From Agroathelia rolfsii (lineage: Eukaryota; Basidiomycota; Agaricomycetes; Amylocorticiales; Amylocorticiaceae), in contig JABRWF010000003.1 in assembly GCA_018343915.1 (NCBI GenBank), positions 1,240,001 through 1,304,000 on the forward strand: a DNA stretch of 64,000 nt. Reading direction: 5' to 3'. A program made the position numbers and the translations under genes. The notes under the pieces were generated by a model, which was not told the origin of the DNA, did no database searches, and saw nothing but the letters and a program-made list of their open reading frames with translations. Shown in pieces: positions 2,186 through 63,270 of the stretch; within the stretch, counting starts at the first letter, position 1; the number at the start of each line of letters is the position of its first letter.

Positions 2186-5100
2186 TCAAATACCAAGGTG
2201 GATGAACGGGATCCACGCAAAGAAACTGTCTTCTCCTACTCTCTCTCTCAGATGTGCAACCGCCTCGTGAAGTGCGTACGCCGCCTGTCCATCGCTTGTC
2301 TTCATTCTGTGAGATTTCAAGTACTTATAGAACTGCTCGGCGACGATCGGTCCATCCTTGTCCCTGATCGACCACATTGTGCCGATGACGGTGTGATATC
2401 CGCTCATGAGCATACCAGCTGCAAGATGAGCAGCCTCTTCGGGCATACCCTCGTCGCCCTTGGCTGTTTGACAAGCCGAGAGGAATGCTAGCCGAGCATG
2501 GGGCAAAGTTTCTCCAGAGATGGTACGAAGGTCGAGCGGACCGTCGTAAAGCATGAACGCACTCTTCATTGGATCTTTCTCCTGCTGTACACCGTGACAG
2601 GCCAAATGAATCCAGCTCCGCTCTCTCATCTGACGTAGAACGGCATCACGGGAGGCTGCACCTCCGCTGAGTAATGTGAAGTCTTTGCCATCGAGTTGAT
2701 CATGAATCATCTTGACTTCATTAATTGTGTAGGGCGGTGGACTCTGACCAGGCGTTGATGGCTGGGATATAGCCGCAAGCCCTCGAAAGTCTGGCAACGT
2801 ATTGCCATCTTCACGCTTCAGCAGCATGGACAGACTTGGTGTATAAGACGATACAGCATATTTATAGGCCCTGGATTCTGAGTTTGAGCCGTCTCGATTA
2901 TAGCATCCTGCTGCATGTATAGGCAGAAATGAGAGTGAACCAGTGGTGCACCATGTGACATGCGGTAATGAATCACTGAAAGCTAATGGCTAGAACATTG
3001 TATAAGCAAATCGTAAGACTAGTTAAAAAGAAAGGCGGCGACGTACAGTATATCCGAGTACCTGAAATACGGGGTGAACAATGTCGGTCCACAGCATCTT
3101 GAGAACTCGCGACATCCAACTGGAATACAAGAGAATCGTAGGAGCTGATGCACGGTCGTAATCATCACCCTCTGCAGAGGCGAGATCACGAAGCAGTTGA
3201 TCGTCTTCCGTATCAATCCAAGAGAAGTCTTCGGACGAGCCAGGTTTCTGCGAGTCATGGACGGTGGTGCGAGCACCTCGACCAGCTAATGCACGAGTAA
3301 AGACACGATGAACTTTATTGAGTCTATCAAGAGATGCATATTTCAAATGGACATGTTCCAAATTATGTGTTTCATCGTTCCGGAGGATAATAGCATCACA
3401 GCGGCTTTCACTGATATTGATAATGATAATAGGCCCATGTGCGGCCGCCGGTGTAAGCGTCGAAAGCTTCGGTGATTGAAGGAAGTCTTCGTATCCAGAA
3501 CATTGACGGACCTTAACAAGCACGTTTTCCCACTCTTGAGCAAGTCGTCGATGCTCACGTGCATCTATCTCCCACTGATTGGATGCGTCAGTAAGTAAGG
3601 AGACAGGCAAAATATCCAGGACCCTTCCCAATGTCTCTAGTGAATGCGAGACATTTTTAACCTGAGCGGCAAGGTTAGGATAGTCGCGTTTGAGATCATC
3701 AATTGGGGTACGTAGACGAAGGATCTGGCCCCAGACAATTGATCGACCTTGCTCAATCCATTCAAGCGCAAGGTCAGGATGACCAGAGGAACATGCAACA
3801 GAAGTCGCAATGGAAACGGATTTACTAACGGAAGCAATATCTTGGTATCGAAGAGCGACAGAATTGCCTAGCCAAGCTACGCGTGGGATGAGTTCCATAA
3901 GTATGTGAGATGCTCGAAGAGGGGAGAGATGGGGACCAGAGTCAGGAAGTGGGTGAGTAGAGGCAAGCAAAGCCCATTGACGAGCTGCATTATGGAGAGT
4001 ATGAGGGGATCCGACTGAAGAGGAAGCAGAAGCCGAATAAGCGAAAATGGCATGTTGTAGATAGTCGATATCAAGAGTACGTCGAAAGCGAGTGGTAAAC
4101 GAGTTCCCCAGGTTATTAAGATGACGGGGTTTGTCGGCATGGCCGCTAGGAGTGAGATCGACAGCCTGCTGCTGAACCTGAATAGCCTGGTCAATGTCTG
4201 CTACTTCGCCAAACCGTTTGAATCGGCGAAGAAACGAATTCCCTAGATTATTGAGACGAGAGGGTTTGTCGGCATGGCCGCTAGGAGTGAGATCGACAGC
4301 CTGCTGCTGAACCTGAATAGCCTGTTCGATGTCTGCTACTTTGCCAAACCATTTGAATCGGCGAAGAAACGAATTCCCCAGATTAGTAAGACAACTGGGT
4401 TTGTCGGCATGGCCGCTAGGAGTGAGATCGACAGCCTGCTGCTGAACCTGAATAGCCTGGTCAATGTCTGCTACTTCGCCAAACCGTTTGAATCGGCGAA
4501 GAAACGAATTCCCTAGATTATTGAGACGAGAGGGTTTGTCGGCATGGCCGCTAGGAGTGAGATCGACAGCCTGCTGCTGAACCTGAATAGCCTGTTCGAT
4601 GTCTGCTACTTTGCCAAACCGTTTGAATCGGCGAAGAAACGAATTCCCCAGATTAGTAAGACAACTGGGTTTGTCGGCATGGCCGCTAGGAGTGAGATCG
4701 ACAGCCTGCTGCTGAACCTGAATAGCCTGGTCAATGTCTGCTACTTCGCCAAACCGTTTGAATCGGCTTTGAAACGAATTCCCCAGATTATTAAGATAAT
4801 TAGGTTTGTCGGCATGGCCGCTAGGAGTGAGATTGACAGCCTGCTGCTGAACCTGAATAGCCTGGTCGATATCTGCTACTTCGCCAAACCATTCGAATCG
4901 GAGAAGAAACGAATTCCCCAGATTAGTAAGACAACTGGGTTTGTCGGTATGGCCGCTAGGAGTGAGATCGACAGCCTGCTGCTGAACCTGAATAGCCTGG
5001 TCAATGTCTGCTACTTCGCCAAACCGTTCGAATCGGCTTTGAAACGAATTCCCCAGATTAGTGAGATAACCGGGTTTGGAGGCATGGCTGCTATGCATCT

Positions 5101-5723
5101 CATGAGTAATCTGCTCAAAGAATAACACCGCTATATCAAGGTCAACAACCTGTCCTAATCGCTCAAACCGAAGAAGCAAAAGCCTTGCAAGCAAACCAAG
5201 GTTTTTTGTCCCAATTTCTTCATCTTCTGGCGTTAGTCCAATGACACTTTGCTGCAACTCAATCGCTTCCTCCAAGTCCTCCCAGTCTCCTGACAAATCA
5301 AAACGCGTCTGGACGGAAATTACGAGATTGCTTAGCATCCCTCGTTTTCGATAGCTATCCTCTGGTACTAGATTGATTATTTCTCTTTCAAAGAATATTG
5401 TCATATTGAGATCCTCGATACTCCCATGTTTTTGGTATTGCTCCCAGAAGTTCTGGGCCTCTCTCTGCGCAGCACTAATCTGTGCTTGTACTTATACAAG
5501 TCAGCTTCTTATCCTTGGACCATTATGTAGACCATGTTTAACTTGCTTACCCGCCACCCAATTTAGCATATCAGTAGGCGTTAATGTACTGAGACTGTCA
5601 TCATCATGCGTAATGCTGAGAATAATTGACATTATCTCATCCTGATAGTACATCTGTTTGTTCATAGCTTCATGCCACAGTAATCAGTGATTCACATACC
5701 AATGATGTATTGCCATTATCCAT
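2186..5723 (-). CDS. TPR-CHAT protein with a homogenised TPR array (copy A)
   Basis: Predicted caspase-like CHAT peptidase with an N-terminal tetratricopeptide array; substrate unknown. Five-part reading: exons 5723-5700, 5653-5551, 5490-3047 and 2989-2186 give a 1124-residue product. The first exon is only eight codons and ends at a GTATG donor, as in the two intact paralogues; the second intron has a CTGAC branch motif and a TATAAG acceptor. Residues about 75-505 are 45-residue TPR units (core NLGNSF, RFGEVADI, QQQAVDL), seven of them nearly identical. A helical linker follows with LALEWIEQGRSIVWGQ. The CHAT domain fills roughly 860-1124 and keeps the expected dyad: His in HLACHG (about residue 989) and Cys in FLSACQTA (about 1030). 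The intron after LGYT sits at the same place in every copy. Function in recognition or cell death is inferred only. Confidence 0.87.
4137..5081 (-). repeat. Tandem 135-bp coding repeats (TPR units) in copy A
   Basis: Seven copies of a 135-bp unit begin at 4137, 4272, 4407, 4542, 4677, 4812 and 4947, an exact 135-bp spacing that equals 45 codons. Units alternate between two types, so 4273-4542 and 4543-4812 form a 270-bp higher-order duplication that differs at only a few bases. The paralogues at 12-15 kb and 17-20 kb have the same 45- or 42-residue-type units but far more diverged in DNA. This indicates recent unit expansion or gene conversion in this copy alone. Confidence 0.93.
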
Positions 5724-17001: not shown

Positions 17002-20000
17002 TTAGATGCCAAGGTGGATGAATGGAACCCATGCAAGGAAGTTGTTCTCTCCTACCCATTTCCTTAGCCGCTCAACTGCTTCATGAAGCGCGTACGCCGC
17101 CTCTCCGCCGTTTGTCTTCATTTCATGAGACTTTAGATACTTGTAGAACTCCTCGGCAATGATCGGCCCATCTTGATCCCTAATCGACCACATTGTTCCA
17201 ATGACAGTGTGATACCCACTCATAAGCATACCAGCCGCAAGATGCGCTGATTCCTCTGGTATATGTTCTTCGCCTTTAGCAGTCTGACAAGCGGAGAGGA
17301 ATGCTAACCTAGCGTATGGCAATGTTTCTCGAGATATAGTGCGAAGATCGAGTGGTCCATCGTGAAGCATGAACGCGCTCTCCATTGGGTTTTGTTCGCG
17401 CTGTATTCCGTGGCAAGCCAGATGTATCCAGCTGCATTCTCTCATCTGATGCAGAACTGAGTCGCGAGACGCCGCAGCGTTGTTGAGCCAAGTGAATTGA
17501 CGAGCGTCGAAAAGATCCTGAATCTTCGTCACCTCATGGACAGTACCAGGCAGTGGGTTCTGTTCTGGTGTCGATGGCTGTGAAATTGCAGCCAGTCCAC
17601 GGAAATCTTGGGAGCACTTGTCCTGCTCGCGCCTGAGCAACGTAGACAAGCTAGGGGTATATGAAGAAACGGCACATTTGTAAGCCCTCGTGTCTGACGT
17701 CGAGCCATCTTGCGCATAGCTTCCTGCAGCGTGGAGAGGCAAAAATGCAAGTGGGCCCGTAGCGCACCATGTGACATGCGGCAGTACACTATCGGGGGTC
17801 GGGAGCTATAGGAATACATAAGATGTGTGTTGGAAGATTAAAGCAAGAATGCAACGTACCGTATACCCGAGCTTCTGAAATACGGGCTCAACAATGTCTG
17901 TCCAGAGCATCTGAAGAATTCGCGGCATCCCACGCACGAGAATCGAAGGTGCCGAAGCGCGTTCATCACCTGCATTCAAATCGAGATCATGAAGTATTCT
18001 TTCAAGCTCCTCTTCCGCGTCACTCGAAAAAGAAACTTCTCCGGGCAAGCCGACGATCTCCGGGTCACCACCAGCATAGCGCACACTTCGACCAGCCAAA
18101 TTTCGGGTGAAAAGGAGTTGTGCTTTCTCTATCTTGTCTAGAGACGCAGATTTGAGATGTACGTGGTCTAGCTTGGATAATCCATTCGAGTATTGCAAGA
18201 TGATAGCGTCGCACCGACTCTTTGCAACACTAATAACGATGATGGGTCCTAATGCAGCGGCAGGGGCCAAGGCAACCAGCTTCGGTGGTTGCAGAAAACC
18301 TTCATACCCTGGACGTTGACGGACTTGTGCAAGCAAGCTCTCCCATTCTTCCGTGATTCGCCTATGCTTCTGTGCATGAGCCTCCCGTTGATTAACGACG
18401 ACCAACGCATTGGGAGCAGATAATATTTCAAGACCAGCACCAGAGAGCTCGAGTGAGCGAGATAGGTGTTCCATCGAAGCTGCGAGCTCGGGATGATCGC
18501 GCTTCAGATCGTCCATCGGTGTGCGAAGGCGGAGCATTTGACTCCAGATAATTGATCGGCCTTGTTCAAGCCATTCAAGCGCGACGCTGGGAAAGCCGGA
18601 GGAGCATGCAATTGGAGCCGCCAAACTGATGGCATCGCTAACAGAGGAAATCTCTTCATATCGAAGGCTAACAGAATTTCCAACCCAAATGACAAGCGGG
18701 ACGAGGTCCATAAGAACGCGGCAGGCCTGCATAGGTGAAAGGAGGGGATTGAGGGATGGCAAGTCGAACTCGGAGGCAAGCAGAGCCCAGCGACGAGCCG
18801 ATTCGAGGCGGATGCGGGGCGAACCAACCGTTGAGCGAGCGGACGCGGAAAAAGAAGAAAGGGCATCTCGAAGATGATCGTGATCAGAGGTATGTCTGAA
18901 TTGAAGCTCTAGCGAATTTCCCAGATTCTTTAGAAGAACGGGTTTGCCAGCATGATCATCAGGCGTAAGATCAACAGCCTGTCGTTGCGCCGAAATTGCC
19001 TCTTCAATGTCTACCACCTCTCCGAGCTGCTGAAATCGACTAAGAAGCGAGTTCCCAAGATTGGTCAAGCAGCTGGGCTTGTCGATATGGTCGTCGGAGG
19101 TGAGATTGACCGCCTGTTGCTCCACCGTAATCGCCCGGTCAAGGTCTGCCATGTTTCCGTACCGACTAAATCGAATGTCTAGCGATGCCCCGAGATTGGT
19201 TAAACAGCTGGTTTTTTCGACATGGTCATCAGGTATGATATCAACGGCACGCTGCTGTACCAGTATCGCCTGGTCAATGTCGGACATTCCCCCAAATCGT
19301 TCGAATCGAGCGAGAAACGAGTTCCCCAAGTTGCTCAAGCGACTGGGTTTTCTGGAGTGGTCGTCAGGGGTGAGATGAACCGCCTGCTGCTGCGTAAGAA
19401 CTGCCTGGTTAATATCTGTGATCTCACCAAACCGCTCGAATCGCGTGAGGAAGGCATTCCCCAGATTGTTCAAAAAGCCAGGTTTATCGATATGCTCATC
19501 AGGGATGGCATCGACGGCTTGCTGCTGCATCTGTATCGCTCGATCGATATCCGCCACCTCGCCAAACCGCTCGAATCGTGTGTGATACGAAGTTCCAAGA
19601 TTGTGTAAATATCCAGGTTTGTCGTCGTGGCCATCGGGACTGAGATCGACAGCCTGTAACTGCACCGAAATAGACTCGTCAAGGTCCGTCTTGTCACCTA
19701 GCCACTCAAATCGCTTCTCGAACGCGTTTCCCAAATTGGTGAGATAACTGGGTGTACTGTGGTAGTCGCTGGAAGCGAGATCAATGGCTTGTTGAGTCAA
19801 AGCGATCGCCATGTCAAGATCAACCATCTCTCCTAAGCGTTCGAATCGTACGAGCAAAGAGCTTCCCAGTGTGTTTAGGAAACCTGGGTCGATGGATGCA
19901 TCTTCGGGTGTCAATTCAATAGTTCGTTGCCCCAGCGAAATCGCATCTTCCAAGTCGGCCAGGTCCCCGGTGTGGTGAAACCTTGTCGTTAGAGACACCG

Positions 20001-20399
20001 CTAGGTTGTTCAGATGGTTTTGCTTGTCGGGCTCGGTGTCAGGTACGAGATCGATAACTTGACGTGCAAAACATATCGCCTTGTTGAGATCATTGATGTT
20101 CCTCAATTTTTGATACTTCTCCCAGTATATCACGGCTTGTTCCAACAAGCTATGAAGTCTTGCTCGCACTGTGTTAATGTCATCAGCATTGTTCCTTGAG
20201 CATGTTCAATGAGCGATCCCTCACTCATCATCCAGTCGTCGAACCCTTCATCCATAGCTGATATACCGACGTTATTACCTCCTACATGAAAAGCGGTTCT
20301 GGATATAATGTCATTCTGATAATATAGCCCCAGAGTCAGTTGTCGGTCGATGCTACGGTAGACTGCTGAGCATACGAGGGATATATCGCTATTATCCAT
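17002..20399 (-). CDS. TPR-CHAT protein (copy C)
   Basis: Third intact member of the tandem set. Model: exons 20399-20376, 20315-20225, 20168-17860 and 17805-17002, 1075 residues. The first exon again encodes eight residues starting MDN and ends in a GTATG donor. The frame stays open from 20399 to 20130, so retention of the first intron cannot be excluded. The second intron has a GTGAGG donor, an ACACAG acceptor, and joins in phase 1 exactly as in the other two genes. About ten TPR units follow, then a linker with LEWLEQGRSIIWSQ and the CHAT domain with His in HLACHG (about residue 940) and Cys in FLSACQTA (about 981). Moderately diverged TPR units contrast with the near-identical units of copy A. 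Confidence 0.86.
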
Positions 20400-23985: not shown

Positions 23986-24993
23986 CTAAAGCAAAATCGA
24001 AAAATTATTCCTACTCGAGCCCGTACGCAGCTCAGTTTTCTTGGAAAACCGGGCGGCCCCAGCCTGTTGAAGTTCTTGTCCTTCAATCTTACGGTAAAGC
24101 CAATAGCCCATTCGACCCCCAACCTTCCATCTCTCTTTGACACAGTTGAAGCCAACCGCGCTCATCAGTGCATGAAAGTGCTCGACCGTGATATAACGGG
24201 AATTTTGGACACAAGGCAAGGGAAGCTGGATCCGATATGGGGTCAAAGTTTGTAAAAGCTAACTGAGTGATAGTACCTACGGCCACAAAGAGATGCCCAT
24301 TTGGCCTAAGCATTGCATGTGCCAAGCGGATCATCCTCCCTGTCATAAAAACACGCCTAAGTTATATTATATTACCACTTCGGATGTGAGTGTATTGACC
24401 ACGATCATGAGCGTTAGGCACAAAGTTGAGCACTAAGCTAAGGCTGATTAAATCCCATTTGGATGTATGTTCCAAGATATCCATTTGGAGAAAGTCTTGT
24501 TGCTTGATAGCAGGGTGACGTGAACTCAAGTCAATGGGCGTCACACTGATCCACGAGCTGCACGGAGCATAATTGTCCGGGAGAAGAGCACCAACCTCTA
24601 AAAGGCTAGCAGAAATAAAGAAAGTTTCAGGGTAGCCGAGCTCATATAAGCGGATTAATTCGCGCACCTCAGCTTTTCAGAAGATGGCCTTGTACGCCCG
24701 ATCTGGAGCTCTTTCAGCCAAGATATGAAGAACTTTTCACTGCCACCACCACGCTCATCGCTTTGTCCAGCAGTTGACATGCGCTGATAAGTTTCGAGAC
24801 CGCCGAGAGACTCTATCTCTCGCTCTATTTCTGCGAGAGCTGCCGCATTTCCTGAATTATGTGCTCGCAGCTGGGCCTGGCGCTTGAGAAGAACATGGAA
24901 CCTCCGAATTGTTGCTCTCCCGGCACTGCTACTGGGCGATGAACTCGCTCGTTGCGCTACGGTGATAGGCGTCTTTCTTCTGGCTTTTGGCAT
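23986..24993 (-). CDS. bmt2: 25S rRNA adenine-N(1) methyltransferase, Bmt2 family
   Basis: Nucleolar SAM-dependent enzyme that makes one m1A in the large-subunit rRNA. Exons 24993-24668, 24605-24400, 24339-24281 and 24225-23986 join in frame to 276 residues. The start MPKARRK was chosen because family members begin with a similar short basic stretch; an in-frame codon further upstream is not ATG-supported by homology. Family landmarks in order: IRRFHVLLKRQ, LGGLETYQRM, GGGSEKFF, the SAM-binding LEVGALLPDNY, IDLSSRHP followed by QQDFLQMD, SLSLVLNFVP, then LPLPCVQNSRY and a closing YWLYRK. Length fits the family. Divergently transcribed from spe2 with 459 bp between the start codons. Confidence 0.92.
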
Positions 24994-25452
24994 CCTCAAT
25001 ACGGCCGAAGATTTGCACTCGATTCGAAATCTGTCTTTTGATATGGACTTGAAGTTCAAGTCGTGGTGGATCGTCGGAAATGCAGAGGCAGTGACAAGGA
25101 AGCACGATTTCGAAGCCTGTCACTGTGACAATGTGACGTAGCCGTCACGCATGGCCAAATCCGGCCATCGTCCAAAATTTGTTGTCTTTCAACACAGCAA
25201 CCAACTCGCAGGCCAGAGCGCTCCTGCGTCTCTTTCTGCCCTCCCTTGGTCCAGCAACACTTCTAATCTTTCCCCCCGCATTTCATGCATAACGGAACGG
25301 CCCTTCGCGGCGGATACGAATCTCCTTTTCGATAGCGGAATCACTAGCAAAAAGTTCTCATTATCATTCGATCATCTTTCATCATCCTCACCCCCTCCTC
25401 CCTGTCGAAGCCTAAGATCTAAACTTTTAAAATTATCTCTCGTATAAATTAC
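24994..25452. promoter_or_regulatory. Divergent promoter and leaders of bmt2 and spe2
   Basis: A 459-bp divergent intergenic region. Around 25120-25150 it has clustered GTCAC/GTGAC motifs on both strands. The spe2 side holds upstream ATGs: one at 25151 opens a 98-codon frame that ends five bases before the spe2 start, and one at 25285 opens a 16-codon frame. Whether either lies in the transcript is unknown. No TATA box is evident. Confidence 0.4.
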
Positions 25453-26937
25453 ATGGCACACGACCAGGAGACGGAGAATCATGACTACTCCTCGCCATTC
25501 GAGGGCCCCGAGAAATTACTAGAAATATGGTTTTCACCATCACCAGCACATGTGCCTAACGGCAGGGGCCTGAGGCAGGTCCCACGACAGATTTGGGAGG
25601 AAATGCTTGATATTGTCAAGTGTAAAGTCCTCAGCGTCATCGAAGGCGACGAAATTGACGCGTACCTTTTGAGGTAAATATTCCATATTATAGCATATAT
25701 CCTACCTTTTCACTCACAGCGGAAAATTTTTACTTTTTCTGTCAGCGAATCCTCATTGATCATCTCCTCTCACCGTCTCATCCTCAAAACCTGCGGTACA
25801 ACGCTCAACCTCCTGGGCCTCCCTCGCATTTTAGAAATTGCACGCGACTATGCCGGACTTCCACGTGTCCACAGATGTTTCTATTCTCGCAAGAGTTTTA
25901 TGTTCCCGGAACGCCAACACGGCCCCCACCGTGGCTGGTCCGAAGAGGTATCATTTTTAGATGCCGTCTTTCCCGGCGGCTCGGCATACACCATTGGCAA
26001 AGTGAACGGCGACCATTGGCTGCTGTATCTCACTGGTGAAGACCCCGGGTCGTCCAGCACCAGCGAGGGCGGGACGGCGCCGAGCAGTCCAATCATCCCT
26101 CTTATCGATGGTCCCATTCATGTTAACGTGGGAGGCACGGGCAGCACACCGGATTATACTATCGAAATTCTCATGAGCCAGCTGGCACCGGAGGCGCGCG
26201 CGCCGTTCTTTGCTCCCGACGATGGCAGCGTATTGTCTCCTGCCGAAGACGCTGCTAAACTCTCCGACGAGATTGGCATCTCGGACATCTTCCCACGAAA
26301 CATGACGACGTTGGACGGGTACTCGTTCACGCCGTGTGGATACTCTTCCAATGCGCTCATCAACTGGGGCAGCGGCGGTCTCGCCAACGGAACGGGTGCT
26401 GCCGCCACCGCCACCGAAGCGCCTACTAACGGACACGTGGATTCCTCCGAAGCCGAAGAACAGCCGACGCCAGCGCCAGCAGCCGCCACGCCGAGCAGGG
26501 AGGGATACTACACTATTCACGTCACGCCCGAAGAAGGCTGGTCGTACGCCTCATTCGAGTGCAACGTCCCGCTCTCACTCTCACGCTCGCGCTCGCACCA
26601 GCCAAACGGCGCTATCCCGGACCTTAGGACCGTCGTCCGCCGCGTGGTGGATATTTTCCGCCCCGGCCGCATCACGCTCACACTCTTCATCTCCAGCGAG
26701 GACAATCGCGACTTTTTGGAGGAAGACGAGGACGGCGTGGGGGAGAGTGCTGTCGAAGCTGCGCAGAGGGCATTTAAGCTCGCGCTGTCGGGCGTTCCCG
26801 CCGCGAGCAAGAAGATGAATGGGGCCACGAATGGGCATCATCATGGTGCTTGGGCGCGCTATAGACGCACGGATAAGATCAACTACGAGTTCGGGGGGTA
26901 CGATCTGGCGTTTGCGAGCTTTGAGGTCATGCAGTGA
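25453..26937 (+). CDS. spe2: S-adenosylmethionine decarboxylase proenzyme
   Basis: Pyruvoyl-dependent enzyme that makes decarboxylated SAM, the aminopropyl donor for spermidine and spermine. Exons 25453-25673 and 25746-26937 give 470 residues; the intron splits a Ser codon directly before the processing site. The N-terminal FEGPEKLLEIWFSP carries the two acidic residues of the family. LLSESSLI holds the self-cleavage Glu-Ser bond (Glu75/Ser76 here), which yields the beta chain and the pyruvoyl alpha chain. LKTCGTT has the catalytic Cys, CGYSSNAL the processing Ser and YYTIHVTPE the His. Two low-complexity insertions (Ser/Gly-rich near residue 200, Ala/Thr/Pro-rich near 320) make it longer than the human enzyme, as is usual in fungi. 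All key residues are present. Confidence 0.96.
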
Positions 26938-46262: not shown

Positions 46263-47869
46263 ATGGCTACTGCCACAGCAACTACGACGGAAAGCCTTGA
46301 CCTTGGATCGCTCTTTACATGTCTATCTTGCTCGATTGCATTCCACACCGCCGAGGAGCAGCGTCAGTCTTGCCCCAAATTTCCAGTTTACATCAAAACT
46401 AAATGAGCTGCTCTAGGTGCGCATTATCGCTCTGATCACCATAGATATAACATGAGGCGTCGTGTGGCTGGCTTGCCTCCCGTTAATGTTGCTATCTTCA
46501 ATCAAAAGGTGATAGAGCGAAGAGCGGAGACAGCCATTATGGCATCTCCTAAAGGTTCAACATGCGAAGTGTGCAAGTAAGTCTAGTCATCAGGCTAATC
46601 CGAACTTTCTAATTGACCTGTACGCAGTAAATCTTACACGACGGAAAATGCCTATCGTTCTCATCTAAACTCTAAACGTCATAAAGAGAATGAATTGAAG
46701 GCTGCCAGCCGTCTGTCCAAGTCGTCCGCCATAGTGGTGGAAGATACAGTACCCTCACATGGCAGTGAAGAACCAGCACAGTCAGAACCGAAGGAAGAAG
46801 ATGATGCTGATGTGTTAGCCCAGAAGACAGCTTCGCTGACTGTCGACGATGATGCCTCAGAGGACGAGATCAACCAGACCATTGACCAAAAGATTGCTGC
46901 GGCAAGATCAAGACTCTCTCCCGTCAACTGTCTATTCTGTCCCAACAAGTCATCTTCCCTAGATGAAAATCTGACGCATATGTCCGCTGCTCATTCATTC
47001 TTCATCCCTGATGCGGAATACCTCATCGATCTCACCGGTTTGATTCAATACCTAGGCGAGAAAATCGCTGTCGGAAATGTTTGTATTTATTGTAACGGCA
47101 AGGGAAGAGAGTTCCGCTCTCTCGACGCCGTACGGAAGCACATGGTCGACCGCAGTCATTGCAAGATCGCCTACGACACCCAGAACGAAAAGCTGGAGAT
47201 CTCGGACTACTACGACTTTACGAGCTCCTACCCAGTTGAGCTCCAGAAGAAAAAGAAGCGATCTTTGCGAAAGAAGAAGACTGGAGCAATGGAGGTCGAT
47301 AAGGAAGAGGATGGAGAGTGGGAGGAGATGGATGAAGATGACGATGCCGAGATTGACGAGGTCGTGGACGAGAGCGCCTCCTCTGAAGAATCAGAAACAG
47401 AATCCGACTCTGAAGAGTCCCTACCTGACAACCAGATAACATATGGCGATTCGCATCTGGAGCTCGTCCTCCCCTCTGGCGCTCGTATTGGTCACCGAAC
47501 AATGAAGCGCTATTACGCACAATCGTACACTCGCTTCGGAGGCAAGGACGATGAAGACCCAGAGTCTGGCAGGTCTATCGTGCGTCGACTGCTAGCAGAT
47601 AAGAACAGCGCACTGGTGCCGCGTAAGGGTGGATTTGGCGCATATGGTATGGGCACGGAAGTCATCAAAGCTCGGAATCGCGGTGAGGCACGTGAAGCTG
47701 GGAGACATATGCGCGAGTTCAGAGATCAGAGGAAACGTGAAGATTTTAAGACTCAGATTGGATTTATCCATAATAACCAGAAACACTTCCGGTATGTCTA
47801 CTCCTTGAATATCGCAAACCAGTCAGCTAATGCATGTCTCTTTCATTTAGTGCACCTTTTTTGCAGTGA
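46263..47869 (+). CDS. rei1: Pre-60S ribosome maturation factor Rei1 (ZNF622 family)
   Basis: Cytoplasmic zinc-finger protein that acts late in 60S subunit maturation, in release and recycling of shuttling factors and checking of the peptide exit tunnel. Exons 46263-46362, 46417-46576, 46628-47791 and 47851-47869 give 480 residues. The first C2H2 finger is CLSC with the His pair in RAHYRSDHHRYN; a second is CEVCNKSY with RSHLNSKRHKE. CLFCPNKSSSLDENLTHM and CIYCNGKGREF followed by HMVDRSHCKI are the third and fourth. An acidic Glu/Asp/Ser-rich region lies near residues 300-345, and a basic C-terminal part ends NNQKHFRAPFLQ, close to the family's usual end. The last exon is only 19 nt. Located as an island inside the membrane protein array. 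Confidence 0.95.
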
Positions 47870-47972
47870 TTTGCTTGCCCTATTATACATTTTGTATGAA
47901 TATTTCTTGTATATTTAGTCATGCATCTTAGTATGCGCTACCACGGATAGAAGTACATACACACATACATTG

Positions 47973-57786: not shown

Positions 57787-58920
57787 CTATTTGTTTTCGA
57801 CTAGGAGCGAGCTTCTCAAACCGTTCAAGTAATCGAGTTTGTCAACAAGACTACGGGCGTAAGGTGCGAGATTAATGGCCTGCTGTTGCAACAAAATCGC
57901 CTGGTCGATGTCTGCCAACTCTCTAAGTCGTTTGAATCGTCTGAGAAACGAGTTCCCTAGATTTTCCAGGAGCACGGACTTGTTCGGGTGATTATCAGGG
58001 GTGAGATCAACAGCTGTCCGAAGAACAGAAAGCGCTTGGTCGCAATCCGAAAGATCATAGCTAAATCGTTCAAATCGGAGGAGATGTAAGCTTCCCAGAG
58101 TGTTCAAGGTCATGGGTTTATCAGGATGATCGTTAGGGGTGAGATCAACGGCTTGTCTTTGGACTAGAATTGCACGCTCTAGGTCTGTTCCTTCACTGGA
58201 TAGCTCAAATCTGTTAAGAAGGGAATCACCCAGGTTGTTAAGAAAACTAGGCTTGTCACTGTGCTCATCAGACGTGAGATTGATGACACGCTGTTGCACC
58301 GAGATTGCTTCGTCGAGATCTGCCACTCCTCCGGACTTTTGGAATCGCTGAAGAAGTGACTTCGCTAATTTGTTGAGATATTCGAATTTGTCAATGTGAT
58401 CATCAGGCATCAGGTCAACAGCCTGCTGGCGCACCGAAACTGCTCGTTCGACGTCTGACACTCCGCCAAATCGTTCGAATCGAATAAGATAAAAAGTCCC
58501 TAAATCATTTAGAAGGCCAGGTTTGTGGGAAATGCTGTCTGGTATGATATCGACGGCCTGCTGTTGTAATAAAATTGCACGATCGACGTCTGATCCTTGG
58601 CCGAACCTCTCGAACCGGTTTATAAGTAAAGTTGCCAATGTGCACAACGCGTGCGAGTGTATTAGATCATCTTTGTGTGTAATTTCAACAGCTTTTGTGC
58701 TACTTGTGATAGCTAGGTCCAAATCTGCTGGCTTGCCTAAGCGATAGAACCTCTTTTGTAGCAATGTCGCCAAATCACATAGGGATTGAGGTTTATTGAG
58801 ATTATCATCCGTGATAATATTTGCGATCTCTTGTTCCAACGATATAGCCATGTCGAGATTAGCGATATCTCCTGATTCCTGGAACATCTTTAACAGTAGA
58901 TCTATCTGCTCCCGAGCCAT
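57787..58920 (-). CDS. TPR-only relative of the TPR-CHAT family (copy E), probably truncated
   Basis: 377 residues made almost entirely of the same 42-45-residue TPR-type units as the TPR-CHAT genes (for example LNNLGDSLLNRFELS, RAILVQRQAVDLTPNDH). It starts at an ATG at 58920; the frame stays open upstream to a possible AG acceptor near 58937, where the paralogues also have a splice junction, so an N-terminal exon may be missing from this model. After the last TPR the frame stops, and neither the EQGRS linker nor a CHAT domain follows. It is either a 3'-truncated pseudogene or a TPR-only decoy or adaptor; the unbroken 377 codons do not decide between these. Confidence 0.65.
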   Translation of the reverse strand: MAREQIDLLLKMFQESGDIANLDMAISLEQEIANIITDDNLNKPQSLCDLATLLQKRFYRLGKPADLDLAITSSTKAVEITHKDDLIHSHALCTLATLLINRFERFGQGSDVDRAILLQQQAVDIIPDSISHKPGLLNDLGTFYLIRFERFGGVSDVERAVSVRQQAVDLMPDDHIDKFEYLNKLAKSLLQRFQKSGGVADLDEAISVQQRVINLTSDEHSDKPSFLNNLGDSLLNRFELSSEGTDLERAILVQRQAVDLTPNDHPDKPMTLNTLGSLHLLRFERFSYDLSDCDQALSVLRTAVDLTPDNHPNKSVLLENLGNSFLRRFKRLRELADIDQAILLQQQAINLAPYARSLVDKLDYLNGLRSSLLVENK

Positions 58921-59834
58921 ATCAGCGAAAGTTTTAGCTTGATAAATTGTGAGTACAGCGACTACTTAATAGACAAAAGGATGTGCCTGAGGATGAATCA
59001 AACACATGTAAATAAAGCAAGCGTAAAATTACTCAATTAACAGTATGCAAACGATTTTCTGAGGCTGTCTATAGTCATTACTGTAACAGTATAAGGTGCT
59101 ACATAGACTTAGTTTTAAAGAAAAAGGAATGAAATGAATGCGTTCAAAGTGTACCCAGATATTTTTCGCTCATTGCTAGTACTACTACACGTGCCTACTG
59201 GAGTTTCCTGACGAAAGGTACTATTTTATCAATCCTATTATTCAGCAGCCTTCATAAGATGTCAAAGCGCTCACTGATTTTTTATTTTTAAACACACGCT
59301 CACATCTTAAATGTAGAGATTTTATATTTGAGTTGGTTGCTCGATGCGCTGACCGGCATGTATGCAGAGAGCAGTAACAGCAGCGAATATGGAAAAGGCG
59401 TGAAGTGCTTTTCAAGCCCCGGCTGGACAAAAATCTGTAGGGAGAGGGGTAAACAGCGCAGGTGGGTGGGATTCCTCGCTGCGCCATCTCTCTAGCGGCC
59501 CAATGGCTTGAGCTGGGTCGAGATTGAGTATGAGGTATGTGCTAGGACGGGCCAAGGCAATATAAAAAATCATAGGGACTCCAAGATGTAGCCTTTGCCT
59601 GGTGAAATATGGAGAGAGTGGTAAGTGCATTTTTAAAAAGTAAGAGTTGGTAGGAGATGGGCCACCAGCCCTGATGTGCACGCCAAAGACATCGATTAAT
59701 ACACATATGAAAATAGGTTATCAGGCTACTATTACAAAAATTGTTGCCATGTAATCTGTACTCAGTGTATCATTGAATTACATATAATAGCGATGGAAGA
59801 GGAGTTTTAACTCACCAATAATATTGATATTTGC
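58921..59834. other. Spacer between copies E and F with a dispersed repeat
   Basis: No gene recognised. About 90 bp at 59345-59435, read on the minus strand, resemble 6351-6442 on the plus strand; both contain ccggggcttgaaaag, a TTTTCC stretch and ctctgcatac. It is possibly a fragment of a dispersed element. Confidence 0.5.
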
Positions 59835-62800
59835 TCGGTGGATGAACGGGATTCACGAGGTAAAGTTCTCCTCGCCAACCTTCTACCGCAATTGCTCGAG
59901 AGCTTTGTGCAAAGCATATGCCGCCTCGCCATTACTAGTCTTCTGATTATGAGCTACAAGATACCTGTAGAATCCTTTAGCGACGACCGGCGCATCCTGA
60001 TCTCTGATGCACCACATCGTACCAATAACGGTATGATACCCACTCATCAGCATTCCTGCTGCAAGATGGACCGTTTCCTCCGGCAGTGCCTCGTGGCCTG
60101 CGGCCGTCCGACATGCAGATAGAAAAGCGAGCCTAGCATGAATTGAATAATGGTACGAAGATCTAGAGGCCCGTCGTAAAGCATGAATGCACTGGTCATT
60201 GGATGGCTTTTGCTCTGTACACCATGACAAGCGAGGTGTATCCAGCTGGATTCTTTCATTTGTTCTAGAACAGTTGCCCGAATCGCGCTAGAATCATTCA
60301 GCCAAGCGAAGTGCTTCGAGTATATCCGAGTTCGAATCATTTCTACTTCAGTAACTGTTCCGGGAAGTGGGCTCTGTTTAGGTGTACTGGGTTGCGATAC
60401 AGCGAGGAGCCTACGAAACTCAGATGTATCAACTTCCTCTAACGATAAAGACAGGGTCGATAGACTAGGCGCATAGGAAGAGACGAAATAGTTGAACGCT
60501 TTGGTACTAGCAGTGATATGTGGGCTGTAGTAGCCTGCAGTGTGTAGAGGCAAGAATGCAAGGGGCTCTGTAACACACCAGGTGATACGCGGTAGTATGT
60601 CACTTGAAAGCAAAGGCTATAAAAGGATTTATTTTATCTAAAATGGGCGAGCAAATAGAAGTCATACCACATATTTCAGCCTTTTAATAATAGGCTCGAC
60701 AATATCACTCCAAAGCACATGAAGAATACGTCGCATCCTTAGTGATTGGAATACCGGCCTTGAAGCACGAGCCTGAGTACCGACATCATTGTCACTACTC
60801 AGAGCGCGTGCTTCCCAAAGTTCCGATTCTTCTTGAGATCGCTCGTTATTTGATGACGCCAGACCGGGTAGATCACCTAGGGAAGATTTTCGGGCTCCCC
60901 TGCCAGCTAGAGTCTTGGATAAAAGAATATGGACATGTTGGATCTTGTCCAACGTGGCTGAAATCAAATGTAAATGATCTAGCTTGGGAAAATTTCCATC
61001 ATATTGAAGAATGAGCGCATCACAACGACTTTCTTCGAGGTTGACAACGTCAACAGGACCAAGCCTTGCGGCAAGAAAAGCTTCTCTAGTTTCTTCGGCT
61101 GCAAGAAATCTTCATATCCGGAGCATTGACGAACTCTATCAATTAGATTCTCCCATTCTTCCGTAAGTCGTCTATGAGTTTGAAAACGTTCCTCTTGGGA
61201 AAATTGACTGAGCGAATAGATATCAGTGCTGGTATATGCGTTCATATAATTGTTTGATTCCTCTAATTGACGAGAAACATGCACCATGGAAGCGGCAAGA
61301 TTTGGGTGATCATGACAAAGGACATCCATAGGCGTACGGCGACGAAGCATTTGACCCCAGACAATCGAGCGGTCTTGTTCAAACCATTCCAAGGCGAGGT
61401 CAGGAGAGCCAAAGGAGCATGCAACCGCAGTTGCATGATTGACAGCGGCAGTAATAGAAATTATATCCGCATATCTATGATTTATCGGGCTTCCCAGCCA
61501 AGCAACGCGAGGGATGAGTACTATGGTCACTCGACATACATGTAGTGCGGATAGATAAGTGTCCTGACGATTGGACGAGCCCTTTGAAGCTAATGTAGCC
61601 CAGTGACGGGCTGATGCAAGCCGTACGTGGGGAGATCCGGAGGGCGCCATGACGGAAGTTGAAAAAGAAAGTATAGCCTTTTCCAAGTCATGTGGATTGG
61701 AGTAAGAATCGAACCTGTGCCTAAATAAACTGCCCAGTTTGTGAAAACGACTACTTTTAAAAAAGTGATTATCAGGCGTCAGATCAGTGGCATACTGATA
61801 TAGCACAAGTGTTCGGTCAATATCTACTGGTTCGCTCAGTCTTCCAAACCTCACGACAAGAGTCTCCAAGAGCAGTTAAGGAGCTGGGTTTCTTGGGGTG
61901 ATTGTTGGGCGTAAGATTGACGGCCAATCTGAGAGTTGCTATTGGCTCATCAAGGTCAGCCATTAGATCGCATCGCTTGAATCGACTGCACAACGAAAGC
62001 CCTAAATTGTGCAAACGAGAGGGTTTTTAGGGTGGCTATTAGGCGTAAGGTTGAAAGCATGTAGCTGTGATAAAACCGCCTGATTTATGTCGTCCATCTG
62101 GTCCAGTTGCCTAAATCGAATAAAATACGAGCTTCCGAGGCTATCTGTGCAGCGAGGTTTATGGGCATGATCATCAGGTAGAAGATTTACGGCACGCTGT
62201 TGTATCAGGATATCCTGATTCACGTCCGCGATCTCGCCAAGCCGCATAAATCGTTCGCGCAAGGGGGTACCTAGATTCTTTGAAATGTCGGGTTTGCTGG
62301 TATGGCCGTCAGACGTAAGATTAACGGCCTTCCACAGCGCTGAGACTGCCCGATCGATGTCTGCCGCTTTGCCAAAACGCCCGAAAGGTTGGATTAATGA
62401 GCACCCTAGATTGTTCAGGCTATTAGCGGCACCTGGATGGTCGTCGAGCGTAAGGTCGGCGGCTTGCTGATGGGCATCAACAGCCTGGTCAATATCTGTA
62501 ACCTCGCCATACCGATCGAACCGACTAAGCAGCGAGTTTCCCAGATTGTTCAGGAAACTAACTTTCAGAGAATTACCATCGGGTGAGAAATCAACGGATT
62601 GCCTTTGAACCATGATGGCCTGATCAATATCCGCGGGTGTGCCAAGGTATTCAAACCGCCTGCGCAATGAAACACCCAAGCTGTTTAAACGATCAAGTCG
62701 ATCGAGACTGCTGTGGTCGCCGGGTGTATTAGCGACAGATTTCTGTTGCAGAGATACAGCGATATCGATATCTACCGCCTTTTCTGATAGCTCAAAACGG

Positions 62801-63270
62801 ATTGCCAGCGAGCGTTCAAGAGCGTCCAATAATCGAGATTCAATGGAAACTCCTTCTGGGACGAGTTCAATTACTTCTTGCTCGAGTGAAATCGCCCGCT
62901 CCAAATCTGCGTGATCTCCTGATCGTTGATACCGATGCTTCAATGATGCCGCAAGGTTACATATTGCATAAGGCTTGAGGAAATACTTCCCCTTCGGTAA
63001 CACTTTGATTGACTCCTCCATGAAGAAAATCGACATATTGAGATCATTGATATCTCTAGATTTCTGACATTTCCCCAAAAATAAAAACGCCTTTCCCGTA
63101 GGATGCCTGCGAGTATCTCTAATTTACGTATTCATGAGTCCAGTCATGTATTATTCGTTTTTCAAAATGGTATTCACTTACCCGGTTTTCTTACGCTACC
63201 GTTTTGCAATAGTTGGGTTATCAACCTGAAGGTCATGTAGTTCGCGGGTTGGAACGTCGATACCAGACAT
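59835..63270 (-). pseudogene. Decayed TPR-CHAT gene (copy F) with several frameshifts
   Basis: A full-length TPR-linker-CHAT order can be followed, but not in one frame. Frame changes occur near 63075 (before the first TPR), near 62025 (in an A run), near 61855, near 61075 (before the linker's end) and near 60145, where residues between LRTI and HARLAFLSAC are lost. Two stop codons break the last 20 residues (near 59885 and 59850). A first exon from 63270 would also contain a stop. The conserved intron is still seen as GTATGA to TTTTATAG around 60663-60615. His of HLACHG remains; the Cys motif reads FLSACRTA, still with Cys. The gene is most likely dead. Confidence 0.82.

Follow-up and report, generated by a model that had tools for sequence, protein, structure and literature searches.

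Highly conserved TPR arrays have been described in fungal NLRs by Dyrka et al. 2014 (PMC4986451), passages of which report repeat-number polymorphism and, in Podospora, positive selection on the concave face. In the same passages NLR-like proteins account for 60–70% of the conserved arrays in dikarya, so that conserved arrays outside NLRs have already been counted. The gene analysed here (L046), which encodes a TPR array joined to a CHAT domain, shares with those arrays its near-identical TPR units, which reach at least 85% unit identity over at least 100 aa (345 aa covered, by an offset method and not by T-reks), and the location of its variable positions in the TPR helices (on the concave side in the NLRs). 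Unlike L046, the NLR arrays in these passages occur together with a NACHT or NB-ARC domain and are backed by strain polymorphism and codon tests. Judged from sequence, the product of L046 appears to resemble a highly conserved repeat receptor, but one that has no NOD domain.

The link between a TPR-bearing CHAT protease and fungal gasdermin reportedly goes back to the original study of Clave et al. 2022. Passages in two reviews (PMC12881547, PMC10197012) state that a TPR-bearing CHAT protease activates fungal gasdermin and that protease domains can fuse directly to TPRs; in a passage of PMC11138114, however, the protease that controls gasdermin in this 2022 study is a serine protease, and CHAT proteases are placed near gasdermins by survey. 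Like the gasdermin-controlling proteases of these passages, L046 has a CHAT cysteine protease domain fused directly to superstructure-forming repeats. For such a protease a gasdermin gene would be expected within about 10 kb, and none was detected near L046: the gasdermin profile (PF04598) gave 0 matches in the genome, but the control was likewise silent in all 14 genomes. The hetB protein of Aspergillus fumigatus, characterized in PMC11138114 as a large CHAT-domain protein acting in heterokaryon incompatibility, has the CHAT domain in common with L046; hetB, however, is an idiomorphic locus in an ascomycete.

The original prediction took the WD40 arrays of HET-E as its precedent. In Podospora HET-E, HET-D and HET-R (PMC12222747, PMC2873952), near-identical tandem units are shuffled and homogenised inside a recognition protein, which is the likeness to L046; their units are, however, WD40 repeats in a HET-NACHT architecture. 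The precedent was kept as an analogy only; closer ones are the conserved arrays in fungal NLRs (PMC4986451) and the gasdermin-linked TPR-CHAT proteases (PMC12881547, PMC10197012). Csx29/Craspase of type III-E CRISPR also combines TPR and CHAT, but it is bacterial and has an RNA-guided partner (PMC9729208, PMC9935389), and L046, whose exon 3 matches NF041237 with E = 2.6e-06 and 26.6 of the 300 bits needed, is not a member. A passage on gene families in Rhizoctonia solani AG8 (PMC4014442) calls CHAT the most abundant peptidase domain. Among the papers listed by a literature search that mostly excluded subscription journals, none dealt with arrays of conserved units in NOD-less Agaricomycete TPR-CHAT proteins.

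Gene model and unit structure of the array

The window is the whole stretch of 64,000 nucleotides that was analysed (C3:1240001-1304000, in a genome of 37.7 Mb on 8 contigs), and coordinates without a contig name refer to it. L046 lies on the minus strand, from 5665 to 2186, in three exons which after splicing give 1,118 codons with no internal stop. Exon 1 (5551..5665) is an open frame with the donor G/GTAAGC, and the frame is kept on splicing to exon 2; the start ATG is probably that at 5665. Exon 2 (3047..5484; open frame, splice sites read) carries the TPR units and the linker toward the CHAT domain, and exon 3 (2186..2989) most of the CHAT domain and the stop codon; the introns measure 66 and 57 nt. 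In the Pfam scan, TPR_10 matched the exon 2 ORF 3023-5404 (E = 8.8e-22) and CHAT (PF12770) the ORF 2186-2827 (E = 2.8e-29); the genome-wide CHAT profile match of this gene is at C3:1242192-1242977 (E = 4.0e-33).

The protein begins with a short N-terminus, which is followed by three diverged and then seven near-identical TPR units of 45 residues, a helical linker and the CHAT domain, with 10 TPR units detected before the CHAT domain by HMM. In its AlphaFold model (mean pLDDT 81, pTM 0.71), helix A extends over approximately codons 26-44 of the unit, and structure search matched TPR superhelices, including 8chy, OGT (1w3b) and LGN, as expected. The His/Cys pair of the CHAT domain, previously called intact, is indeed present in the spliced protein: His983 (codon 2594..2596, in the motif LACHG starting at 980) and Cys1024 (codon 2471..2473, in SACQT starting at 1022), both read from the spliced translation and the letters of the window, are what we take to be the catalytic pair, a role known from the CHAT family. 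No NACHT or NB-ARC match was found with Pfam on the exon 2 and exon 3 ORFs or with NCBIfam, a library of prokaryote models, on all three exons; the 65 aa preceding the Pfam-scanned ORF are too short for either domain. By these searches the predicted protein is NOD-less and not a fungal NLR (STAND) receptor. It is an intact member of a large Agaricomycete TPR-CHAT family (CHAT domain-containing / TPR-like protein), and the sensor-effector layout proposed for it is supported by the presence of a TPR repeat array and a CHAT protease in one protein.

Seven units at an exact spacing of 135 bp had been claimed, and this was confirmed in three ways. TRF found one array (4097-5093; period 135, 7.4 copies, 91% matches, 0 indels); the codon register gave seven units from 5017 down to 4073, with each of the six spacings exactly 45 codons; and the lag-135 identity across 4073-5017 was 0.902, whereas 1,000 codon shuffles averaged 0.277 and never exceeded 0.332. 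The boundaries given earlier (4137-5081) fall inside the TRF array but are offset from those of the units, which occupy 4073..5017 on the minus strand in the order A1-X-A2-B1-A3-B2-C. The description of the array as a 270-bp higher-order repeat was correct for units 3 to 6 only: dimer copy 1 (A2+B1, 270 bp, 4478..4747) and dimer copy 2 (A3+B2, 270 bp, 4208..4477) are identical at 269 of 270 positions, B1 and B2 being the same and A2 differing from A3 by one base (99.3%). Unit 1 (A1, 4883..5017) is a further A (97.0% identical to A2 and 97.8% to A3), whereas unit 2 (X, 4748..4882; 89.6-92.6% to units 1 and 3-6) and unit 7, the last of the array (C, 4073..4207; 80.7-83.7% to the other six), are other types. 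DNA identity between adjacent units along the array is 89, 92, 93, 92, 92 and 80%. A plus-strand open frame, 4517-5125, overlaps the array region and is probably a by-product of the stop-free repeat period.

Tandem units can be collapsed, expanded or made chimeric by an assembly, and a passage of PMC12222747 reports that short reads assemble comparable arrays of 126-bp WD40 units unreliably. Such an artefact is highly unlikely here, given that several units differ from one another, that no stop breaks the reading frame, and that 8 contigs for 37.7 Mb suggest long reads able to span 1 kb.

In the neighbourhood, seven ORFs chosen from the far larger number at 0.5-12 kb of the window gave no Pfam match above cut-off. 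Among three chosen at 22-25 kb, one (24658-25119, minus strand) is a piece of the Bmt2 25S rRNA methyltransferase (E = 1e-10) adjoining an S-adenosylmethionine decarboxylase gene (25756-26937). The named relatives inspected among the listed matches of this decarboxylase are Agaricomycete fungi, at up to 60% identity, and one metagenome protein matches it at 89%, so that the organism is most likely a mushroom-class fungus. Farther off, 46695-47918 on the plus strand codes for a C2H2 zinc-finger protein (zf-C2H2_2, E = 2.2e-34). A second copy of the downstream ORF 472-972 was not found in the genome, by searches whose counts are lower bounds. Comparison of flank ORFs all-against-all produced 1,208 pairs, and the 60 that were inspected were mostly antisense frames or segmental pairs of L034 and L035; no partner gene is proposed for L046.

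Paralogues, relatives and age of the array

The CHAT profile had 27 matches in the genome, which were merged to 25 loci. As a side observation, 12 of the 25 are clustered inside C3:1191130-1537849, about 347 kb of one contig. The comparison covered 22 loci (C3:1333183 and C1:5294326 were not fetched whole, and L048 at C3:1261516 is without TPR units), one of these sets, in the window from 30 kb, being remnants. An identical pair of units occurs only in L046; the next best pair is at 94.1%. In L042, the gene on C7, adjacent-unit identity is 80, 94, 88 and 77% inside the array and 34% at the first pair, in L039 it is 74-87% after a first pair of 45%, and the remaining loci range from 26 to 82%, except for two pairs in L032 (93 and 85%). 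L046 is the extreme of the 22 sets in having five consecutive pairs at 89-93% and the sole identical pair. The averages over whole loci, outer units included, are nevertheless not extreme (L046 0.76, L039 0.78, the three units of L038 0.79; mean best-in-array identity 0.83 in both L046 and L039), and nearby units with at least 85% aa identity were found in four loci in a graded manner (2 of 21 units in L032, 2 of 13 in L039, 3 of 6 in L042 and 6 of 10 in L046). For these reasons, L046 is one end of a homogeneity continuum among paralogues. The locus means, 0.37-0.78 over the 22 sets and 0.79 in the three-unit fragment, are graded as random expansion and decay would predict. They accord with concerted evolution without any recognition role, that is, a TPR scaffold with CHAT whose units are homogenised as a by-product of their similarity and whose ligand face varies from low structural load; we consider this explanation possible, if not probable, and return to it below.

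The two other paralogues of the window with stop-free CHAT matches proved to have diverged units, as had been claimed, with adjacent-unit DNA identities of 42-66%. One is L040 (12095..15568, minus strand), a single open frame of 1,157 aa (CHAT E = 7e-35; adjacent units 42-65%), and the other, hereafter the static sibling (17002..20205, minus strand; CHAT E = 9.4e-36), consists of two abutting open frames, which were taken unspliced. Between 3 and 21 units were detected per paralogue, a few of these paralogues being broken copies. Decayed copies were also seen: L048 (21516-22310, minus strand) has three TAA within the CHAT match and no TPR units found; 57787-63078 on the minus strand holds remnants of at least one more TPR-CHAT gene, with stops that break the CHAT match; and in the paralogue L047 (C3:1210400-1219400), whose units are similar, an in-frame stop interrupts the TPR array, which suggests a dying copy.

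Recent expansion of the array, as the original prediction had it, is supported in the form of expansion or homogenisation. By nearest-unit counts, the nearest relative of all seven array units is another unit of the same array. The three diverged outer (N-terminal) units 0-2 (5018..5422, minus strand, by HMM) have their closest match outside L046: for units 0 and 1 it is the unit at the same position of L047 (75 and 76% DNA identity), and for unit 2 it lies in L030 (70%). The region after the array is 64-76% identical to the paralogues in alignments longer than 100 nt, and 77-79% in two stretches of 95 nt. Because both the outer units and the post-array region match the paralogues at only about 64-79%, the inner array is younger than the gene split and was duplicated or homogenised afterwards. 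Fourfold sites point the same way: 12 of 115 differ between adjacent array units, 31 of 129 between array units and the best-matching L047 unit (a best-of-14 choice), and, relative to L047, 24 of 54 over the 363 nt that follow the array. By that measure L042 is equally young (3 of 33 over two pairs), and six other arrays stand at 0.34-0.61. The opposite mode is seen in L034 and L035, which share 21 collinear units at a mean identity of 90%, with 0 of 21 units of either nearest to its own array; they are likely a segmental duplication. An HMG-box gene adjoins each of them, L034 on C2 and L035 on C1.

Outside the genome, 45, 90 or 135 aa was the best self-offset in 120 of 121 proteins, L046 being one of the 120 (L046 and the listed relatives; offsets 34-59, 90 and 135). 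By the offset method, 85% identity over 100 aa was reached by 44 of the 120 listed relatives and by 32 of 95 further ones, both lists favouring proteins that resemble the query. Highly conserved arrays are thus common in the TPR-CHAT family and not peculiar to L046, whose array is real, recent and of an already known kind. Among the 120 matches listed of 1,450, the best identity to L046 was 55% and no strain copy or ortholog was present; an ortholog, if present, would presumably have outscored P0015. Likewise, no ortholog of L042 stood among the matches listed in its own protein search, where P0254 and P0291 were checked as one-to-one orthologs and rejected.

Positions at which the units differ

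Ligand-face positions were assigned by the TPR numbering of PMC1261162, together with the predicted helices. The face set comprised TPR positions 2, 5, 9, 12 and 13 (codons 28, 31, 35, 38 and 39), and positions 33 and 34 complete the published set. Within the genome, units with at least 75% DNA identity were linked by 55 minimum-spanning-tree edges in 9 genes, the last unit of each array being left out; the L046 array gives 5 of the 55 edges, and its variable codons were known before the face set was chosen. Of 773.5 replacement differences, 189.7 fell at the five face positions, where 85.9 were expected by codon share (permutation P = 1.2e-4), and 236.2 when positions 33 and 34 were added (P = 2.6e-4), although position 33 itself was not enriched. 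Silent differences, counted in this genome only, showed no such concentration (43.3 of 497.5, 55.3 expected). A test without L046 used minimum spanning trees of proteins drawn from the 120 listed. Unit pairs with at least 90% identity, found in 40 of them, had 134 of 401 differences at the face (44.6 expected, P = 1.2e-4), with the direction of enrichment the same in 33 of the 40; at a threshold of at least 80%, the face received 785 of 2,655 differences in 74 proteins, 71 of which lean the same way. Amino-acid differences between similar units thus concentrate on the ligand face of the TPR, both here and in the 40 database proteins. Outside the canonical set, positions 29, 25, 12, 42, 43 and 1 are also strongly variable.

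Within the L046 array, 7 of 13 replacement columns are among the ten most variable positions of the database proteins (P = 0.003), versus 1 of 9 silent-only columns. Seven of the nine silent-only columns lie in helix A, and patchy homogenisation therefore explains part of the pattern. The proposed check by per-codon dN/dS and diversifying sites on the concave face came out divided: replacements do concentrate at the face, but with last units left out the smallest P for a codon omega above 1 was 0.003 among 45 codons, which is not significant after correction, and the overall omega was 0.60-0.64.

These values bear on concerted evolution without recognition. An omega not significantly above 1 is consistent with it, and ligand-face positions vary in TPRs at large (PMC1261162), so that concentration at the face is by itself no proof of recognition. 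On the other side, the same codons are variable in 40 other proteins, and an unconstrained face would predict at least as many differences there between orthologs as elsewhere, whereas fewer were found in the one pair available. This pair consists of the static sibling and P0015, a protein from a related organism that is its best candidate ortholog (77% identity in the head and 69% in the tail, where the runner-up among the fetched loci has 55%). P0015 probably lies on the contig that also carries the 89% match of the decarboxylase. Each has nine units in collinear order, with a mean aa identity of 79.8% on the diagonal and 53.8% off it (fourth unit on), and only 3 of their 82 differences fall at the five face positions, where 9.1 were expected (P = 0.03). 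Pairwise comparison of the sibling's units with each other gave 897 differences, of which 145 are at face positions (P = 0.001; pairs not independent). On the thin evidence of one ortholog pair, the face of the sibling differs from unit to unit and yet is kept between organisms. Since they are conserved there, the face positions look like a maintained per-unit code.

The static sibling also lends itself to another explanation, namely that the protein is a conserved protease-scaffold of the cell whose ligand is fixed; extra units would then only tune affinity or length, and no non-self recognition would take place. Its collinear units and conserved face fit such a scaffold; it is, however, a different gene from L046, unit counts vary widely among the paralogues and the face residues of L046 differ between units, which make a fixed ligand improbable for L046.

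Paralogue pairs gave mixed results. Face enrichment was found in L034/L037 (P = 3e-5), L035/L037 (P = 4e-5) and L038/L042 (P = 7e-4, three unit pairs). L032/L033 was enriched as well (P = 6e-13), although its collinear pairing barely exceeds the next best unit (0.73 vs 0.72). L034/L035 had no face excess (18.5 vs 13.8 expected, P = 0.25).

Proposed function and its meaning

Taken as a whole, the locus is best explained, with a probability that we put at about 0.55, by a recently grown or homogenised TPR array that serves as a ligand sensor and switches a CHAT protease for defence or incompatibility. The array, its recent homogenisation, the intact dyad and the position-specific variation are the observed part of this reading, and a recognition role of L046 is likely on the sequence evidence. 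The inner array would owe its growth and homogeneity to recombination among its 135-bp units, whether by unequal crossing-over, by slippage or by conversion, and a 270-bp dimer would have been duplicated once in this way. Most likely the superhelix of TPR units binds a protein, using helix A residues of each unit, and changes in the number and kinds of units would have changed the binding surface. Ligand binding may then switch on the CHAT cysteine protease, which would cut a downstream target, plausibly a pore-former, leading to a defence or incompatibility reaction.

A wider and more doubtful proposal, which we hold to be rather unlikely as it stands, is that the TPR-CHAT proteins of Agaricomycetes are a second set of receptors with repeat-coded specificity, which lack a NOD and carry a caspase-like protease of their own. 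Its loci would alternate between a dynamic state, as in L046, and a fixed state, as in the static sibling, whose unit order and face are frozen across species; specificity would arise as units are duplicated and later be fixed by selection.

The sensor reading bears on which non-self or danger signals mushroom-forming fungi may sense via their many TPR-CHAT genes. L046 is a compact case in this respect: a single gene with seven near-identical units and defined face residues, for which the static sibling, some 12 kb away, can serve as a control. A face that differs between units but is kept in orthologs would make it easy to test whether selection acts on the face as a code.
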